Positions 12,665-41,758 of a DNA stretch of 64,000 nt are shown in pieces; the stretch's first letter is position 1, and every line of letters begins with the position of its first letter. Made by a program: the position numbers and the translations under genes. The notes under the pieces were generated by a model that was given only the letters and a program-made list of their open reading frames with translations, ran no database searches and had not been told where the DNA came from. Source of the DNA: Syntrophomonadaceae bacterium (GTDB lineage: Bacteria; Bacillota; Dethiobacteria; DTU022); NCBI GenBank assembly GCA_007121075.1, contig SKMK01000016.1, positions 1 to 64,000 of the forward strand. The letters are read 5' to 3'.

Positions 12665-12690
12665 AGCCCGATGCTTGCATCGGGCTTTAA
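12665..12690 (+). terminator. Intrinsic terminator after rpsI
   Basis: AGCCCGATGC-TT-GCATCGGGCT followed by TTAATT. Confidence 0.8.
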
Positions 12691-12790: not shown

Positions 12791-13312
12791 TTATTTTATC
12801 CCCCTCGTTTGAATGTAGTAATCAAGCTTGTTATTCAGCATTTCCCACTCTTTTTGGCTGTTTGCCAGGTCGGAATTATCCAGGTCTTTAATAACTTTCC
12901 CGGGAAGGCCCAGGACCATTTTTTTTGAAGGGATTTCTTTGTTTGGAGCAACCAGGGCACCGGCCCCGATGATAGTATGGTCGCCAACATCTGCATTATC
13001 CAAAACTTTGGCCCCGATTCCAATAACGCAGTTTTTGCCGATTGAAGCTCCGTGAACTATGGCTCCGTGGCTGATGATAGAAGCGCTCCGGATATTCAAA
13101 GAACTCCCTTTACCGGGTTCAATGATGGCATTTTCCAGGACCATTACCCCTTCTTCAAGGACTACTTTTCCTTCGTCGGCCCTGATTACCACTCCAGGCC
13201 AGATCCCCACCCCTTCTTCAAGGACAATATCTCCGATCAGTATTGCCGTGGGGTCTATATAAACTCTTTTGCCGATTAGCGGTTTTTTCCCATTGTATTC
13301 TACCAGGTTCAA
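12791..13312 (-). CDS. Gamma-carbonic-anhydrase-like left-handed beta-helix protein
   Basis: Hexapeptide repeats: VYIDPTAILIGDIVLEEGVGIWPGVVIRADEGKV, IGAGALVAPNKEIPSKKMVLGLPGKVIK. Confidence 0.85.
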   Translation of the reverse strand: MNLVEYNGKKPLIGKRVYIDPTAILIGDIVLEEGVGIWPGVVIRADEGKVVLEEGVMVLENAIIEPGKGSSLNIRSASIISHGAIVHGASIGKNCVIGIGAKVLDNADVGDHTIIGAGALVAPNKEIPSKKMVLGLPGKVIKDLDNSDLANSQKEWEMLNNKLDYYIQTRGIK

Positions 13313-13778: not shown

Positions 13779-13807
13779 TTGTCAAACCGGTCGATCTAAA
13801 TTATAAT
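13779..13807 (+). promoter_or_regulatory. Sigma-A type promoter upstream of the GGGPS-like gene
   Basis: TTGTCA, 17-nt spacer, TATAAT (13802-13807). Confidence 0.6.
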
Positions 13808-13901
13808 AAGCTTAGGATAGTAAATCTCTTTCAATAATAGCGCGAGCGAGTAACAGGGGTAAAATGTTCGATTAAAGTTTTTTTAAAAGAAGGTAATAAC
13901 A

Positions 13902-14636
13902 ATGAAAGTTCAAAAATACATTGAACAAAAACTTGAGCAGGGCGCTGTCCATATCACCCTGATCGATCCTTCCCGCCAGGTGCCTGAAGCAGCCGGCAGG
14001 CTGGCCGAAACGGCTCAGGATGTAGGAAGTGATTTGATTTTTGTTGGTGGCTCCTCCGGGGTTACCCAGCGGGCCCTGACCGAAACCGCGGAAGTTGTCA
14101 AGGAGAGGGCTTCTATACCGGTACTTTTCTTTCCCACCGGTACTGAGTCGATCTGCCTTAACCTTGATGCTTTTCTAATGCTCAGCCTTCTGAATTCGCG
14201 AAACTCCAAATTTATTAGCGGGACCCAGTCAAAAGTTTCGTCGGTTTTGAAACGGTTGGATGTGGAAGTCCTGTCGATCGGATATATCATGGTTGAGCCC
14301 GGTATGAAATTGGGTGAGATCGGAGAAGCCGACCTGGTGGCCCGCGATAACTTCTGGCAGGCAATCGGCTATGCCCTTACAGCCCAGTACATGGGCATGA
14401 GCTATGTTTTCCTCGAAGCCGGAAATGGAGCGGCTCAGCCGGTACCGGCCGGTATGATCAGGGCGGTTAAGCGGGAAATCACCGTGCCCCTGATTGTGGG
14501 CGGCGGTATCCGGACGGCTATCGATGCCCGCCGGGTTCGCCAGGCCGGGGCCGATATTGTTGTGACCGGCACTGTCATTGAAACGGCGGGTTACCGCGAG
14601 AGGCTGCGCTCAATATTGAGCGCCCTTAAGGAATAA
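13902..14636 (+). CDS. Geranylgeranylglyceryl phosphate synthase-like protein (archaeal group II type)
   Basis: HITLIDPSRQVPEAAGRLAETAQDVGSDLIFVGGSSGVT, LSLLNSRNSKFISGTQ, GYIMVEPGMKLGEIG, FLEAGNGAAQPVP, IVGGGIRTAIDARRVRQAGADIVVTGTVIE. Confidence 0.85.
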   Translation: MKVQKYIEQKLEQGAVHITLIDPSRQVPEAAGRLAETAQDVGSDLIFVGGSSGVTQRALTETAEVVKERASIPVLFFPTGTESICLNLDAFLMLSLLNSRNSKFISGTQSKVSSVLKRLDVEVLSIGYIMVEPGMKLGEIGEADLVARDNFWQAIGYALTAQYMGMSYVFLEAGNGAAQPVPAGMIRAVKREITVPLIVGGGIRTAIDARRVRQAGADIVVTGTVIETAGYRERLRSILSALKE

Positions 14637-14671: not shown

Positions 14672-14698
14672 AAAACCCGGTCTTAGGCCGGGTTTTTT
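14672..14698 (+). terminator. Intrinsic terminator after GGGPS-like gene
   Basis: ACCCGG-tcttagG-CCGGGT followed by TTTTT. Confidence 0.7.
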
Positions 14699-15167: not shown

Positions 15168-16082
15168 TTACCGGGCACACTCCCCGCCTCTGCCGCTTAC
15201 TGTTTCCAGGGCGTGGTCGAGCACCGGTGCAATAACGGCCAGGCATTCGGCCACTGCTTTCGGGCTGCCGGGCAGGTTTACGATCAGGGTAGAACCGCTG
15301 ATGCCGGCCACTCCCCTGGAAAGCATGGCCTTGGGCGTAGCCGCTGCTGTTTCGCGGCGGATAGCCTCTGCGATGCCGGGTACTTCCCGATCAATTACTT
15401 CAAGGGTGGCTTCGGGAGTAACATCTCGGGGGCTTAAGCCAGTCCCTCCGGTGGTAATTATTGCATCCACTTCACTTGAAAGCAGCTCCCGCATTTTGGC
15501 GGCCAGGGTGGCCTGTTCATCCGGCACAATGGCTGTCTCGGTAACATCGCCCCAGGGCAGCAGCAGGTTTTGCAGGGCCGGTCCGCTGGTATCTTCCCGT
15601 TCACCTACGGCCCCCTTGTCGCTGGCAGTTATAACGCCGAAACGATATGAAGTTTTAAGCTCCAGCTTGTCGCCTACTTCTATTTTACCCTCCCGGAGCA
15701 CTTCGGCAAAAATTCCTTCCCGGGGCATAACGCAGTCACCGGCCTGGTAATAAATGGCGCAACGGTTGTGGCATTCTTTTCCGATCTGAGTGACCCGCAG
15801 AACCGCTTCAGGGCCGGCCTGCAGCCTGGCCCCCACAGGCAGGTTGACCAGATCGATTCCCCGTGTGGTCAGATTTTCGGCAAAATCACCGGGGCCAATA
15901 TCCAGACCCTGGGCGGTCATTTTGGCAATACTTTCTTCGGCTAAAAGGCTGACCTGGCGGTGAGCAAAGCCGGCATGAGCATCATATTCCAGCCCCCTGT
16001 CTTTAATCAAACGACTTTTTCCCACATTTTTCTTACGCTGCCCTTTGTCCGGGCTGGTGCATACGGCTACTATTTCAGGCAT
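15168..16082 (-). CDS. MOSC domain / MogA-type molybdopterin adenylyltransferase fusion
   Basis: N-terminal MOSC (GLEYDAHAGFAHRQVSLL, PGDFAENLTTRGIDL, IGKECHNRCAIY) then MogA (FGVITASDKGAVGEREDTSGP, DAIITTGGTGLSPRDVTPEAT). Confidence 0.9.
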   Translation of the reverse strand: MPEIVAVCTSPDKGQRKKNVGKSRLIKDRGLEYDAHAGFAHRQVSLLAEESIAKMTAQGLDIGPGDFAENLTTRGIDLVNLPVGARLQAGPEAVLRVTQIGKECHNRCAIYYQAGDCVMPREGIFAEVLREGKIEVGDKLELKTSYRFGVITASDKGAVGEREDTSGPALQNLLLPWGDVTETAIVPDEQATLAAKMRELLSSEVDAIITTGGTGLSPRDVTPEATLEVIDREVPGIAEAIRRETAAATPKAMLSRGVAGISGSTLIVNLPGSPKAVAECLAVIAPVLDHALETVSGRGGECAR

Positions 16083-17152
16083 TATTCCTGCTCGCGGCAG
16101 TAATGGCCGGAGCGCCCTCCTTTCTTTTCGATCAGGCGGATATTTTGAATGGTCATGTTTTTATCGATTGCTTTGCACATGTCATAAATGGTCAGGGCGG
16201 CTGCGCTGACACCGGTCAGAGCCTCCATTTCCACTCCGGTCTGGCCGGTCAACTTAACCCTGACTCCCACTTCGATCCTGGCCGGATCTGCTTTTACCGG
16301 TTCAAAGTCGACTTCAACCCCTGAAATACCCAGGGGATGGGCCATCGGGATCAACCGGCCGGTTTCTTTGACCGCCATTACGGCGGCCACCTGGGCTACC
16401 CCGAGTACATCGCCTTTGGCCAGACTTCCTTCGAGAACCCGGTCCAGGGTATCCGGGGCCATGGTTATTTCGCCCCGGGCATAGGCTTCGCGGCTGGTAT
16501 GTTCTTTGTCTGACACATCAACTATCCTGGGCCGCCCGGACTGGTCGAAATGGGTAAAACCGCCACCACTTTCCTGATCCCCGTCATTGTTCCCAAAATG
16601 GCTTGCCCCTTCTGCCGAACCATTTTTTATAGTGGGAGAAAGGAAGCGGTTGCAAATAAAATTTGCCAGGGCGGCCGGATCATTAATATCAATTACCGGC
16701 ACCTCAAGATTAAGATTGCTGCTATCGGAGATAACGGCGACTGTGTTGGGCAGTAACAGCGGTTCGGGGTTAAGATCGCTCCGCACAACTTCAATCTTAG
16801 GATTTTTAGTTTTTTTGTTCCCTTCAATTATGACCAGGTCCAGGCCCTGTAAAAATTCGGCTGCGGCTTCGTTTCCACTTTTACCCCGGCCCGTACCAAT
16901 TAAAAGGTATTTCCCCGGGGTGGTGAAGCCTGCCACATCGGCACCGGCTTCAGCAAAGCGCCAGCTGTCTTTGCCCGGCAGGTCAAGGTCATAATGTTTA
17001 AGGTTGCCCTTGAGGACAGCTATTTTTAGGCCGCGCTGTTTTAGCTCCGGCACCAGGTTTTCCAGGATAGTTGTTTTACCCGTCTTGGACCGGGAAGCAA
17101 CAAGGTGAATTATTACCGGCGGCAAGTCCTCACCTCCAATTCCATTATTCAA
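16082..17152 (-). CDS. MobB / MoaC (cyclic pyranopterin monophosphate synthase) fusion
   Basis: N-terminal MobB P-loop (HLVASRSKTGKTTILENLVPELKQRG) then MoaC (RIVDVSDKEHTSREAYARGEITM, GRLIPMAHPLGISGVEV, GVEMEALTGVSAAALTIYDMCKA). Confidence 0.92.
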   Translation of the reverse strand: MNNGIGGEDLPPVIIHLVASRSKTGKTTILENLVPELKQRGLKIAVLKGNLKHYDLDLPGKDSWRFAEAGADVAGFTTPGKYLLIGTGRGKSGNEAAAEFLQGLDLVIIEGNKKTKNPKIEVVRSDLNPEPLLLPNTVAVISDSSNLNLEVPVIDINDPAALANFICNRFLSPTIKNGSAEGASHFGNNDGDQESGGGFTHFDQSGRPRIVDVSDKEHTSREAYARGEITMAPDTLDRVLEGSLAKGDVLGVAQVAAVMAVKETGRLIPMAHPLGISGVEVDFEPVKADPARIEVGVRVKLTGQTGVEMEALTGVSAAALTIYDMCKAIDKNMTIQNIRLIEKKGGRSGHYCREQE

Positions 17153-17204
17153 TTAAAAAACTTGTTTCTATTTCTCTTTATTTGCAACATCTCTTTAAAA
17201 ATTT

Positions 17205-18200
17205 TTATCCCCCGGTTTTGGACATGCCCCGCATTGCCCCGGGGTTGATTGTACGGCAACTGCCGTCGGCAGCCATCTGGTGTTCGACCGGTTTGCCGCC
17301 CAGCACTTCCCTGATCAGCCCCTGCAATGCTTTTTTGTCGTCTAAAACCGGCTGCACGGGCTTTTCGTCCTGCCAGTAAAGGCAGGCCTTTAGCGAGCCT
17401 TCAGCTGTCAGGCGGAGGCGGTTGCAGGTATCGCAGAAATGCTTGCTGATCGGGTGAATCAGGCCAATTGTCCCCTTACCCCCGGGGATGCTGTATGATT
17501 CAGCCGGGCCGGCTCCTCCCGGCAGGGGCACCGGGGTTAAAGGCAGGCCGGCTTTCTTTGCCGTTTTTTCGATAAAGCTGAGGGGCAGGTAATGACTACT
17601 GTAGCCCTGGTCATGATCGCCGATCTGCATATATTCGATGAAGCGAATATGCAGCGGTTTTTCCCGGACCAGCTGCAGGAAATCTATAACTTCATCGTCG
17701 TTTACTCCTTTCATCAGGACGGTGTTCAGTTTAACCGGGTGCAGATTGTAGTGCAGGGCGGTTTCAATGCCTTTCATAGCTTCTTCAAACTTTCCGCAGC
17801 GGGTAATTTGCCGGTATTTATCTGCATTTAAAGTGTCAAGGCTGATATTGACCCGGTTCAGACCAGCATTTTTAAGTGCTTCCGCATAGCGAGGCAAGAG
17901 GGTCCCATTGGTAGTCATAGCCAGGTCTTTAATTCCCGGAACGGCGGTAATCATCCGGATCAGCTCGACCAGGTCTTTGCGGACCAGGGGTTCTCCTCCC
18001 GTGATCCTGATTTTGCTGATTCCCAGCTCTGCGCCGGCGGAAACAACTTTCATGATTTCCTCGTAGCTCAAAATGGCATCATGCGAGGTTTGTTCGATCC
18101 CGTCGTCTCCCATACAATACACACAGCGCAAATTACAGCGGTCGGTGACCGAGATCCTCAGGTAATCATGCATCCTTCCCTGACTGTCTTTTAATGTCAT
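17205..18200 (-). CDS. moaA: GTP 3',8-cyclase MoaA
   Basis: LRISVTDRCNLRCVYCM radical SAM motif; ISKHFCDTCNRLRLTAEGSLKACLY; CGxxxx: HQMAADG, MRGMSKTGG C-terminus (GG tail). Confidence 0.95.
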   Translation of the reverse strand: MTLKDSQGRMHDYLRISVTDRCNLRCVYCMGDDGIEQTSHDAILSYEEIMKVVSAGAELGISKIRITGGEPLVRKDLVELIRMITAVPGIKDLAMTTNGTLLPRYAEALKNAGLNRVNISLDTLNADKYRQITRCGKFEEAMKGIETALHYNLHPVKLNTVLMKGVNDDEVIDFLQLVREKPLHIRFIEYMQIGDHDQGYSSHYLPLSFIEKTAKKAGLPLTPVPLPGGAGPAESYSIPGGKGTIGLIHPISKHFCDTCNRLRLTAEGSLKACLYWQDEKPVQPVLDDKKALQGLIREVLGGKPVEHQMAADGSCRTINPGAMRGMSKTGG

Positions 18201-18362
18201 AGTCTGTGGAGCTCCTTTGCTGCAATTTTTCTATTTGCTCTATTACCAGATCATTATATTTTGAACAGAAAAATTTAATCAGTTTAGTCAAAAAATAATG
18301 GCATGGGGATTTTAATGGTCATGGCAAGCTCTACCCTTTTCAGAGCTGCCAAAATATTTAAC

Positions 18363-20270
18363 TCAATACGCTTTTCCCATACTCTTACCGGCATCCCTCA
18401 TACTATACCCCCCCATGGATTCAGCTTCTTCCTGGAAATGGGGGTCGGTTATTATTTCAAAAAGGGCTTCCGCTTCCTGGCTGTTGTAAAATGAGCTGTT
18501 CATCAAAAGGTCGTACCTTTCTTCGACCAGGGGAATAAAATCAAGGTCAAAAGCCCTGGCAGCGGGCAAAATGCCCAGGCCTACCCGGGCGGTTCCGGCT
18601 GCTACCGCGGCTGCTACGTTTAAATGGGTGTGTTCTTCACGTTCATAACCGTAAATCCGGTTCGGTGAAAGACCCTCCTCGCGGAGCAGGTGATCGAAAA
18701 GAATCCGGGTTCCGGCTCCCTTCTGGCGGTTAATAAAGTTGACCCCTGACTCGTCCAGGTCGCCGACCGTTTCAATGCCGTCGGGGTTGCCCCGGGGCAC
18801 TATCCAGCCCTGCATCCGGTAAGCCAGGTTGACCAGGTGCATATCTGCCCGGGGCATCATTTTTTCGACATAAGGCCAGTTGTAATCCTTACTTTCAGGG
18901 TCAAACAGGTGCACACCGGCCAGGTGGGCCTGTCCTCTCCCCACGGCGGTAATTCCACCCATGCTGCCCAGGTGGGCCGAGGAGAGGCTTAAATAGGGGT
19001 TGCGTTCTTTTAGGGCCGAGGCCAGCAGGTCCAAGATCAGGTCATGGCTACCGGCAGCCAGCAAATTATGCCGCAGCTCAGCTTCGGGGCGGTAGAGTTC
19101 TATTTCCACTGTTTCATCCTGTTCATAGCCAAGTGAGTTGGCCGGCACAACCAGCAAGCCGTCGGCACGGACCAGGGACATGGTAACTCCCGCTCCCCTG
19201 GTCAGGGGGTTGGCAATGTAGCGGTCTTCTACGAAACCCACCGACATCCTAACGAACTCTTCTACACCTAACTCTGAAACAACCCTTCGTCCCAGGGTAA
19301 CCTTAAGCTTGTCCCTTTCCGGCAGGGGCAGGCCAAAGCAGCGGTAAATCAGGGGCCGGGCAAACCACTCCAGGCTCATGTAGGCGGAAACCGGGTAACC
19401 GGGCAAGCCAATCACCGGTTTTCCCTCGATCTTTCCAAGGATAGTCGGCTTTCCGGGCCGGGTGGCTACGCCGTGCAAAAAAGGCTCTCCCAGCTCTTCA
19501 ATGGCTGCATAAGTAAAATCTTTATCTCCAGCCGATGATCCGGCATTGATTATGATCAAATCATATTCTTTTACAGCGCCAAGCAGGGTTTCCCTGATCC
19601 GTTCAGGATCATCGGGCACGCTTGGCTTAACATCCGGGTGCGCCCCCCACTGCTTCAGATATGAAGCAATAACGGTGCTGTTGAAGTCGGGGATGCTTCC
19701 TTTTTTACGTTCTTCCCCGGGATCGATTATTTCCGATCCGCTGGGAATAACTGCCACCCGGGGGGCTTTAAGGGTGTCGATTTCAGTGACCCCCCCGGCC
19801 AGGAGCGCTCCCAGGTCCTGGGGACGGAGGCGGTGCCGGGAAGGGATAATCAGCTCACCGGCCACCACGTCTTCGCCGACGGAGCGGACATGCTGCCATG
19901 GTGTGGCCGGGGCCAGGATTTCCGCTCGCCCGTCCTGGTGGAACTGCACATCTTCCACCTTGATAACAGCATCAAATTCGGCAGATAGAGGTTCACCGGT
20001 GTTGATGTTTTGGTAATCCTGTTCCGGTTTGAGCAGCAGGGGAGCCTGATCGGAAGCTCCAAAAGTTTTTTGGGAGTGCACTGCTATTCCGTCCATTGCC
20101 GCGGCATGGTAGCTGGGCATCGAATAGCGGGCAAAAACAGCCCTTGAGGTCACCCGGTCCAATGCTTCGTCTACAGTGGTCTTCTCAGTGCGTTGTAGCA
20201 TTTCTACCCCGATCAAGAATTTTTCCAATGCTTCCCGCCGGGGGGTATTGCTTAAATATACTTTGCGCAA
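18363..20270 (-). CDS. MoeA-type molybdopterin molybdotransferase fused to C-terminal periplasmic-binding-protein-like domain
   Basis: MoeA: SMPSYHAAAMDGIAV, INAGSSAGDKDFTY, RPGKPTILGKIEGKPVIGLPGYPVSAY; C-terminal ~210 aa PBP-like domain (GSHDLILDLLASAL..., INRQKGAGTRILFDHLL). Confidence 0.92.
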   Translation of the reverse strand: MRKVYLSNTPRREALEKFLIGVEMLQRTEKTTVDEALDRVTSRAVFARYSMPSYHAAAMDGIAVHSQKTFGASDQAPLLLKPEQDYQNINTGEPLSAEFDAVIKVEDVQFHQDGRAEILAPATPWQHVRSVGEDVVAGELIIPSRHRLRPQDLGALLAGGVTEIDTLKAPRVAVIPSGSEIIDPGEERKKGSIPDFNSTVIASYLKQWGAHPDVKPSVPDDPERIRETLLGAVKEYDLIIINAGSSAGDKDFTYAAIEELGEPFLHGVATRPGKPTILGKIEGKPVIGLPGYPVSAYMSLEWFARPLIYRCFGLPLPERDKLKVTLGRRVVSELGVEEFVRMSVGFVEDRYIANPLTRGAGVTMSLVRADGLLVVPANSLGYEQDETVEIELYRPEAELRHNLLAAGSHDLILDLLASALKERNPYLSLSSAHLGSMGGITAVGRGQAHLAGVHLFDPESKDYNWPYVEKMMPRADMHLVNLAYRMQGWIVPRGNPDGIETVGDLDESGVNFINRQKGAGTRILFDHLLREEGLSPNRIYGYEREEHTHLNVAAAVAAGTARVGLGILPAARAFDLDFIPLVEERYDLLMNSSFYNSQEAEALFEIITDPHFQEEAESMGGYSMRDAGKSMGKAY

Positions 20271-20291
20271 AAGGCACCTCCATCAACCTGA

Positions 20292-21518
20292 TTACTCCCA
20301 AACTTCAACTTCCACCAGTTCCCCGGCGCTCAGGCCTTCTTTTTCAACAGGAATGACCAACACCCCATCGGCTTCAGATAAAGTGCGCAGCATCCCTGAG
20401 CGTCCGAAAACAGGAACGGCGGCAAGCCCCTCTGCAGCCGGTTCCAGTTTGACCCGCACATAATCGGTTCGCCCGGAACGTGAAGAAATATTGCGGCCCA
20501 GAGTTGCTCTTACGGTTGCCCTGAACTGTTTCTCTGCCTGTCCGGCCAGGCGATTGATGATAGCCCGGCCGAAAATCTTAAAAATATTGAGGGCGGATAC
20601 CGGGTGTCCTGGCAGGCCGAGGACCGGTTTGCCGCTGCAGTTGGCCAGCAGGGTCGGCTTTCCGGGCTGGATGGAAATACCCTCTACCAACAGGCCTGGT
20701 TGGCCCAGTTCCTGCATAGTTCGTGCTGTATAATCACGGGTACCCACTGAACTGCCGCCGGAGAAAACCAAAAGATCCACTTCAGTTAGCATAGAACTGC
20801 TTTGTTCCAGGAAAGCCCCGAAGCGATCAGGCAGAATGCCCCCGTTCTTTGCTCCTGCACCCAGCTGCCTGGCCAGATGAAGCAGAGCCGGGGCGTTACT
20901 GTCCCTGATCTGGCCCGGCTCAAGTTTGGGCCTGCTGTAATCAACCAGCTCATCACCGGTGGAAAAGAATCCTACTTTGGGTCGGCGGTGCACTGCAACA
21001 TCGGTTATGCCAAGCGAAGCCAGCAAGCCGATTTCAGGAGCGCGAAGCAGGTGCCCTTTTGTCAAGGCCGGATCGCCTTGTTTTAAATCCTCTCCCCGGT
21101 GGATTACATTTTCTCCGGGAGCAACCTGGCGAAAGCTCTGGATCATAGTTCCGGTAGCTTCGGTATCTTCGACCATGATCACCGCATCGGCTCCATCAGG
21201 GAGCATACCCCCGGTGTGCACCAGGCTGCACTGCCCGGGGCTGATTGGAGGAGCCGGCTCTCCCATCAGGACTTCTCCGATGCATTCCAGCATGGCCGGT
21301 ATCCCTTCCCCGGCGCCGAAAGTATCTTTGGCGGCAACAGCGTAGCCGTCTACAGTGGACCGGTTAAAATCGGGAATATTTTCAGGAGCGTAGATATTAT
21401 CCGCAAGGCAGTAGCCACCGGCATTTTCCAGGTCCAGGGTTTCACTTTCCAGCGGGTTAAAGTGCTCTTTAATAATTTTTAAAACTTGATCGGGGTCTGT
21501 GACCCGCATTAATTTCAT
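20292..21518 (-). CDS. moeA: Molybdopterin molybdotransferase MoeA
   Basis: IPDFNRSTVDGYAVAAKDTFGA, VFSGGSSVGTRDYTA, IQPGKPTLLANCSGKPVLGLPGHPVSALN. Confidence 0.93.
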   Translation of the reverse strand: MKLMRVTDPDQVLKIIKEHFNPLESETLDLENAGGYCLADNIYAPENIPDFNRSTVDGYAVAAKDTFGAGEGIPAMLECIGEVLMGEPAPPISPGQCSLVHTGGMLPDGADAVIMVEDTEATGTMIQSFRQVAPGENVIHRGEDLKQGDPALTKGHLLRAPEIGLLASLGITDVAVHRRPKVGFFSTGDELVDYSRPKLEPGQIRDSNAPALLHLARQLGAGAKNGGILPDRFGAFLEQSSSMLTEVDLLVFSGGSSVGTRDYTARTMQELGQPGLLVEGISIQPGKPTLLANCSGKPVLGLPGHPVSALNIFKIFGRAIINRLAGQAEKQFRATVRATLGRNISSRSGRTDYVRVKLEPAAEGLAAVPVFGRSGMLRTLSEADGVLVIPVEKEGLSAGELVEVEVWE

Positions 21519-36690: not shown

Positions 36691-37422
36691 CTACCACCCC
36701 AAAAACATAAATAAGTAGACTAAAGGCAGGATTATAAATGAAGTGCCGAGGGGGACAGTCAAGGTGTCCAGGCCTTTTTTGGAGAATAGTTCCAGTACTC
36801 CGCCGAAAGGAGCGGCAATCAAAGCTATAATCAGGCTTGGCAGCCAGGATAAACCGGCATAAAAATACAGGGTCAGGAAAAGTGCCAGGCAGGCGGCGCC
36901 GATCATGGCCGCGGTGCCTTCGATAGTTTTTGCCTTTTCTATGTAGCGGTGGATAACTTTACGCCGCCCAAAAGCTTTTCCAACCAGGGCTGCGGCGGCA
37001 TCGCCAAATCCCCAGGCCATTACAGCAACGGCGGCGATGAAATGCCAGCTGGTTCCAAGCAGGCCCCAGAAAATAAAGATCAGCAGGCCAAAGCTCAGCT
37101 GGACATAAAGCAGCTGCTTTCTCAGTTCGCCCCTGCTCCGGGCCCGTTCCACAAATAATCTCTTGTAAAAAGGTGTTTTTTCAATCAGCATAAGAGCCGG
37201 GTAACCCAGTACCACTAGCAATAATGCGGCTCCGACGGCCGTGTACCAGGTGCTGAATAAATGGAGCAGTAAAAAAATTGAGAGGCTGTAGCCTACATGG
37301 TGAATTTTACGAACATATTCGGTTGGTATATCAAACCAGTATTTAAGTAAAACCGGCATCAAGGCTACGGCTATTAAATAGTAAGCCAACAGGATGACGG
37401 CCCCGATAAGATCGTTATTCAT
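36691..37422 (-). CDS. Phosphatidate cytidylyltransferase / dolichol-kinase-like integral membrane protein
   Basis: VRKIHHVGYSLSIF N-terminal motif; WGFGDAAAALVGKAFGRRK...KTIEGTAAMIGA. Confidence 0.7.
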   Translation of the reverse strand: MNNDLIGAVILLAYYLIAVALMPVLLKYWFDIPTEYVRKIHHVGYSLSIFLLLHLFSTWYTAVGAALLLVVLGYPALMLIEKTPFYKRLFVERARSRGELRKQLLYVQLSFGLLIFIFWGLLGTSWHFIAAVAVMAWGFGDAAAALVGKAFGRRKVIHRYIEKAKTIEGTAAMIGAACLALFLTLYFYAGLSWLPSLIIALIAAPFGGVLELFSKKGLDTLTVPLGTSFIILPLVYLFMFLGW

Positions 37423-40597: not shown

Positions 40598-41758
40598 TTA
40601 GTTTTTATAACAATCCTGCAGGATCTTGTAATAATCCTCCTTATTGATAGAGCGGCAGTTGCTTGGCGTGGAACCATTTATTTCCGATATCTCGGCCAGG
40701 TACTCGAAATCTTTTGGGTCCACCCCTTCAAGGTTGCTGAACCTGGGAATGCCGATTTCTATAGATAATTCAGCCAGCTTTTCAACCAGGAGCCTCGATG
40801 CTTCTTCTGCTTTTAGTTGACCTGTTTTCAGGCCGCAGGCCGAAGCGATCCGGGCATGGCGCCGGGGGTCGGCTTCGGCGTTAAATGCTGTTACCGCCGG
40901 CAAAAATACCGAGTTGGCTGTGCCGTGCGGGGTGTCATAAAGGCTGCCAAGGGCTTCCGCCAGGCAGTGAACGGCTCCTACATCGGAGTGGGAAAAAGCG
41001 ATCCCGGCCATGACAGAACCGATCATCATATCATTACGGGCCTGTTTGTTGCTATCGTCTCTTACAACAGCAGGCAGGGCGGGATAGATTCTTTCAATTG
41101 CGGCAAGGGCCAAAGCATCTGAACAAGGGTTGGCTTCCCGGCAGGTATAAGCTTCGATGGCGTGAATCAGGGCGTCCATACCCGTGGAAGCTGTCAGGCC
41201 TGCAGGCAGGGAGTAGGTGGTTTCAGGATCAACCAGGGCCAGCCCGGGGGCAAGCATTACATCTTTTACCGACATTTTAAATTTTCTTTTTGTGTCGGTG
41301 ATAACTGCAGACCGGGTTACTTCTGAGCCGGTTCCCGCTGTGGTTGGTACACAAACCAGGGGTGTTACAGCTCCGGGAACAGTGCCCTCTCCTTCATAGG
41401 AGGCAAGCGCCCCGCCGTAAACCTGCAAAAGAGCAATTGCCTTGGCTGAATCAATGACTGAGCCCCCGCCAACAGCGACAATGATATCAGCATTGAAGTG
41501 TCTCGCTTCTGCTCCCCCGGCCTCACAGTCTCTATCTATCGGGTTGGGCCTGACTTTTTCAAATATGAAACATTCAAAATTTGCTTCAGCCAGGGAAGAT
41601 ACAACCTGTTCCGCAATCCCGGCTTTCTTAACCCCGGGATCAGTCACAACAAATGCTTTTCTACCGCTTGTTATTTCTCTTATGAACTCCCCGCTCTTTT
41701 TTAATAGCCCTGTTTCGACCTCGATCCGGGTGGGCAGGTTAAAACCATATTTTTTCAA
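40598..41758 (-). CDS. Iron-containing alcohol dehydrogenase
   Basis: IIVAVGGGSVIDSAKAIALL, VPTTAGTGSEVTRSAVI, MDALIHAIEAYTC, GAVHCLAEALGSLYDTPHGTANS. Confidence 0.93.
   Translation of the reverse strand: MKKYGFNLPTRIEVETGLLKKSGEFIREITSGRKAFVVTDPGVKKAGIAEQVVSSLAEANFECFIFEKVRPNPIDRDCEAGGAEARHFNADIIVAVGGGSVIDSAKAIALLQVYGGALASYEGEGTVPGAVTPLVCVPTTAGTGSEVTRSAVITDTKRKFKMSVKDVMLAPGLALVDPETTYSLPAGLTASTGMDALIHAIEAYTCREANPCSDALALAAIERIYPALPAVVRDDSNKQARNDMMIGSVMAGIAFSHSDVGAVHCLAEALGSLYDTPHGTANSVFLPAVTAFNAEADPRRHARIASACGLKTGQLKAEEASRLLVEKLAELSIEIGIPRFSNLEGVDPKDFEYLAEISEINGSTPSNCRSINKEDYYKILQDCYKN

Follow-up and report, generated by a model that had tools for sequence, protein, structure and literature searches.

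A vertically inherited group II GGGPS-family prenyltransferase in one class of Bacillota and its probable role in a minor prenylglyceryl lipid

We found that a Bacillota MAG from soda-lake sediment carries a genuine member of group II of the GGGPS family, the group formed by archaeal (IIa) and bacterial (IIb) enzymes, and that this gene is vertically inherited in one Bacillota class. It lies at 13902-14636 on the plus strand of the 64,000-nucleotide stretch of contig that was analysed (hereafter the window), where an intact open reading frame with an ATG start encodes a TIM-barrel prenyltransferase of 244 aa. Judging from the sequence, the enzyme most likely takes a polyprenyl diphosphate as donor and prenylates a glycerol phosphate, by family precedent G1P, at its C3 hydroxyl. 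The product would be a single-chain prenylglyceryl phosphate, most likely serving as a minor carrier or modifier lipid and not as a bulk membrane phospholipid. We give this explanation as a whole, a vertically inherited group II GGGPS feeding a low-abundance single-chain carrier or modifier lipid, an even chance of being correct.

The earlier note had read the protein as an archaeal-type, group II-like GGGPS and not a Bacillus PcrB, and phylogeny against PcrB had been proposed as a check. Curated HMMs, the ranking of solved structures and the tree all agree with that reading. The window protein scored 256 bits with NCBIfam NF003198 (cut-off 247), 199.6 with TIGR01769 'phosphoglycerol geranylgeranyltransferase' (cut-off 161.55) and 192.7 with TIGR01768 (cut-off 113.25), and matched Pfam PF01884 at 4e-41. 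With the PcrB-specific equivalog NF003197 it reached just 52.6, about one fifth of the cut-off of 260, which places it outside PcrB. Among solved relatives the archaeal group IIa enzymes 6jo3 and 6nke (Thermoplasma) and 4mm1 (M. thermautotrophicus) ranked highest at 181-188 bits, followed by the group IIb enzyme of Flavobacterium (4jej) at 123 bits, with PcrB (3vzx, 61 bits) and A. fulgidus GGGPS lowest at 39-61 bits. A profile of the clade ranked the solved structures in the same order as the single protein did. In a maximum likelihood tree of 50 sequences a branch with 100/100 support parted group II from PcrB and AfGGGPS; the window protein fell outside the group I clade, and the Bacillota sequences of this class formed one clade (96/94) within group II. 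The tree, which holds three archaeal IIa references and no FCB IIb sequences, does not settle the placement relative to IIb. The GGGPS motifs quoted in the earlier note are present in the open reading frame, although one of them was slightly wrong and actually reads FLEAGNGAAQPVP. We therefore regard the family and group assignment as secure. An AlphaFold2 model built on a 22-sequence alignment (A1) had a mean pLDDT of 56 and was set aside.

PF01884 matches were present in 69 of the 98 genomes of this class, and in the window's own order the GGGPS gene usually adjoins rplM-rpsI. Comparison with relatives gave dN/dS values of 0.02-0.09, indicative of strong purifying selection. When the clade profile was run against an even sample of 399 Bacillota genomes, matches of 297-440 bits occurred exclusively within this class, whereas the best match outside it reached at most 76 bits, the range expected of PcrB. 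A tblastn search against plasmids gave no match. Among solved structures the closest likeness is to archaeal IIa enzymes, which would fit contamination of the MAG with archaeal DNA or a gene transfer from archaea in the very recent past. Both are nevertheless excluded for practical purposes by the class distribution, the selection, the class-only profile matches, the single clade formed by the Bacillota sequences and the setting of the gene among bacterial ribosomal-protein genes, which is conserved across many independent MAGs. Elsewhere around the gene, the gene immediately before GGGPS encodes a metallo-beta-lactamase-fold hydrolase in many relatives (L063-L070, L074, L075), and a conserved molybdenum-cofactor-type gene block, at 15168-21518 on the minus strand of the window, is convergent with GGGPS in most family relatives.

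A likely ribosome-binding site, AAAGAAGGT, was read at 13886-13894 (plus strand), with the ATG 7 nt downstream. A terminator-like hairpin at 12665-12686 (plus strand) is predicted to close the rplM-rpsI (S9) operon upstream, so the GGGPS gene is predicted to form a separate transcription unit. The earlier note had given the gene its own promoter and terminator. Of these, the terminator alone goes beyond a suggestion: a hairpin with a T tail lies 3' of the gene at about 14672-14697 on the plus strand (-18.1 kcal/mol, z = -4.24), and its stem may be bidirectional, acting for both strands. The sigma-70-type promoter at 13779-13807 on the plus strand (TTGTCA-17-TATAAT, 11 of 12 matches) is a prediction only, because the scan of the region returned 5 promoter-like sites against a chance expectation of 3.8. 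An Rfam search gave no match.

The earlier note had named the absence of G1P source genes as an argument against its proposal. A search with NF002022 detected no G1P dehydrogenase (EgsA/AraM) in the window's genome or order. The best matches in the order reached about 94-123 bits, and those that were typed are GldA-type glycerol dehydrogenases; the top match of the window's genome, at about 94 bits, fits a glycerol dehydrogenase model best (371.6 bits, cut-off 336). Elsewhere in the phylum the matches reach about 180-285 bits and are apparently AraM-like. An Fe-ADH gene of the window (40598-41758), considered as a G1P dehydrogenase, was ruled out. The missing dehydrogenase is a weak and non-decisive argument, because the GGGPS and DGGGPS genes of Cloacimonadota likewise occur without G1P dehydrogenase, and yet their enzymes produce lipids of archaeal type when placed in E. 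coli (PMC7852524).

The active site combines conserved residues with one substitution. On alignment, Asp22 of the LIDP motif (13965-13967, this and the following codons on the plus strand) corresponds to the Mg/diphosphate aspartate of GGGPS (PMC9385802), Tyr128 (14283-14285) to Mt Y134, and Glu172 (14415-14417) to Mt E180, which polarises the glycerol C3 hydroxyl (PMC9385802). The window protein also bears the mark of group II, a Thr replacing Asn in the beta-alpha-8 phosphate-binding motif (PMC9385802): Thr224 (14571-14573) belongs to a TGT at residues 222-224, not GN. In three sequences of the sister family f7 the motif reads TGN. The conserved Asp, Glu, group II Thr and one Tyr support the proposed reaction, as does the presence of synthases for prenyl donors, one FPP/GGPP-type and one long-chain HepT-like. 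These residues of the active site are shared with archaeal group IIa GGGPS (4mm1, 6jo3/6nke) along with homology over the full length (181-188 bits). The window enzyme differs from that group in being bacterial, in belonging to a genome without G1P dehydrogenase and in carrying Phe170 (14409-14411) at the place of the second Tyr (Y178 in Mt, Y165 in Af), which has been called 'strictly conserved'. Of the Tyr/Tyr/Glu set of the G1P site it thus keeps Y128 and E172. Phe170 lowers the case for a canonical G1P-specific GGGPS and leaves the family homology untouched.

Since Phe replaces a Tyr described as strictly conserved, the G1P activity of the window enzyme may differ. Its acceptor specificity, and that of the relatives sharing Phe170, might be relaxed or shifted, for instance towards G3P, which would fit the absent G1P dehydrogenase. 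The Tyr/Tyr/Glu residues have been proposed to set GGGPS stereospecificity (PMC9385802), and promiscuity toward G3P has been reported (PMC7852524, PMC9385802). At the position matching Mt Y178, 16 of the 61 aligned relatives (the window protein and 15 others) carry Phe and 1 carries Leu. The tree implies about five gains or losses of Phe, the substitution having arisen several times. At the Mt Y134 position Phe or Leu occurs in 4 of the 61 and at the Mt E180 position Asp occurs in 2, while all seven f7 proteins retain all three equivalents. Against a changed specificity, many relatives without G1P dehydrogenase keep both Tyr, and purifying selection is strong whichever residue is present; we hold such a change to be unlikely, though a serious candidate. 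An association of Phe170 with DGGGPS-like genes was striking by eye and was rejected: with just 2 to 4 independent pairs behind it, it lacks statistical significance, and the coding had omitted fragmentary DGGGPS-like genes in G002 and G013.

In f7, yvoF (169-199 bits with NF058585, the model of heptaprenylglyceryl phosphate O-acetyltransferase) lies directly 3' of GGGPS in all seven cases. LhaT (PF07187, DUF1405) is encoded in each of the seven f7 genomes that bear GGGPS and in 1 of the 13 that lack it (Fisher p = 0.0001, relatedness ignored); the adjacency of GGGPS and yvoF is stronger evidence than such p-values. In the B. subtilis pathway described in 2025, acetylated heptaprenylglycerol arises through PcrB and YvoF and supplies the acetyl group that LhaT transfers to lipoproteins (PMC12345273). 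The f7 arrangement suggests, by analogy, that a group II enzyme occupies the PcrB slot of this acetylation pathway, its product probably being dephosphorylated and acetylated before it passes the acetyl group on to lipoproteins, as in Bacillus. It also points to a single-chain carrier lipid as the ancestral role. The window enzyme shares superfamily and reaction type with PcrB, the group Ib heptaprenylglyceryl phosphate synthase, and differs from the Bacillus PcrB-YvoF-LhaT system in belonging to group II instead of group I. Neither YvoF nor LhaT was detected in the window's order, so the f7 role cannot be transferred to it directly. The hexapeptide gene at 12791-13312, which lies upstream of GGGPS on the opposite strand in the window's genus, is gamma-carbonic-anhydrase-like and was discarded as a YvoF candidate. 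YvoF and LhaT also occur, adjacent in several cases, in Bacillota in which a full-length PF01884 protein was not found (L213-L217, from G093, G141, G139, G144 and G127, and G101, G131, G142 and G147); these genomes must either draw the lipid carrier from another source or miss the GGGPS step.

Counting against a carrier lipid, the window's genome holds two further proteins that leave room for a diether. In such an archaeal-type pathway GGGPS, a DGGGPS-like UbiA and possibly a GGR-like reductase would yield archaeol-like phospholipids and a mixed membrane of the kind suggested for Cloacimonadota. The UbiA protein (G000:C15, L078 14045-14872), which could attach a second chain, matched NF009523 'prenyltransferase' best (197.5, cut-off 269), with the DGGGPS models NF009521 (160.8, cut-off 296) and NF009522 next, all below the equivalog cut-offs. 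The best solved relative of its close homologue in G001 is MjDGGGPS (106 bits vs 49 for the next), although a small UbiA tree did not resolve the grouping with MjDGGGPS. A geranylgeranyl-reductase-superfamily protein scored 143 bits, under its cut-off of 158.8. A GGGPS/DGGGPS pair of this sort is functional in E. coli (PMC7852524). With group IIb enzymes (Flavobacterium johnsoniae 4jej; Cloacimonadota) the window enzyme has in common that it is a bacterial group II enzyme from a genome with a DGGGPS-like UbiA and no G1P dehydrogenase; it differs in that the archaeal IIa enzymes stand closer to it than 4jej does (123 bits), that the host belongs to Bacillota and not FCB and that the DGGGPS-like gene is not co-localised. 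A minority of the family carries the DGGGPS-like UbiA, unlinked to GGGPS, whereas GGGPS itself is nearly universal there; in nearly complete genomes, G017 among them, GGGPS occurs and any UbiA is missing. The lack of a detectable G1P dehydrogenase likewise speaks against a diether, which we judge improbable, if still worth weighing.

Family f5 also has UbiA genes in the vicinity of GGGPS, but these are MenA-like and loosely placed and were set aside as a pathway link. In most UbiA-bearing family members the DGGGPS-like gene adjoins a gene for a multi-pass membrane protein that is SEC59/VTE5-like by eye and has no NCBIfam or Pfam match (both genes together: L078 14045-15734, L087 8008-9697, L089 1340-3007, L091 8986-10653); in the window's genome the membrane-protein gene appears split over two frames (L078 14963-15734), possibly by a frameshift. 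A distant paralogue of this membrane protein (32% over 151 aa) is encoded at 36691-37422 on the minus strand of the window, beside a cation-efflux-family gene, and its product has no Pfam, NCBIfam or PDB match.

The proposal of G1P-linked ether lipid precursors made in the earlier note thus survives in part. The genome does hold a group II GGGPS and a DGGGPS-like UbiA, but it lacks a detectable G1P dehydrogenase, and archaeal ether lipids are not the most economical reading because the f7 GGGPS is paired with yvoF and lhaT. Archaeal-type membrane lipids are possible and do not lead; a minor single-chain prenylglyceryl lipid leads, and our best guess for the product of the window enzyme is a minor monoprenyl-glyceryl phosphate. 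It is conceivable, if rather improbable, that this Bacillota lineage, with a group II GGGPS minus the stereospecificity Tyr and no G1P dehydrogenase, makes G3P-linked or mixed-stereochemistry isoprenoid ether lipids, possibly diethers here, and so would represent a natural mixed membrane. Very unlikely, finally, is that the window's order also runs the acetyl-carrier pathway with a non-homologous acetyltransferase replacing YvoF/LhaT. The shared ancestry of the f1-f5 and f7 GGGPS clades (96/94) and the yvoF linkage in f7 speak for it; against it, a candidate gene was not found, and YvoF-like matches in the window's genome reach at most 41 bits and span the hexapeptide part only.

In published surveys the GGGPS of Firmicutes falls in group I (PcrB), while group II enzymes of bacteria come mainly from FCB (PMC6431249, PMC9385802). 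What is new here is a group II GGGPS as a class-wide core gene in Bacillota, its pairing with yvoF and lhaT in f7 and the active-site substitutions in the window's order. These findings bear on whether bacterial GGGPS genes are a sign of archaeal-like membranes or of small carrier lipids, and the natural Tyr-to-Phe variants offer material on how GGGPS discriminates between G1P and G3P.
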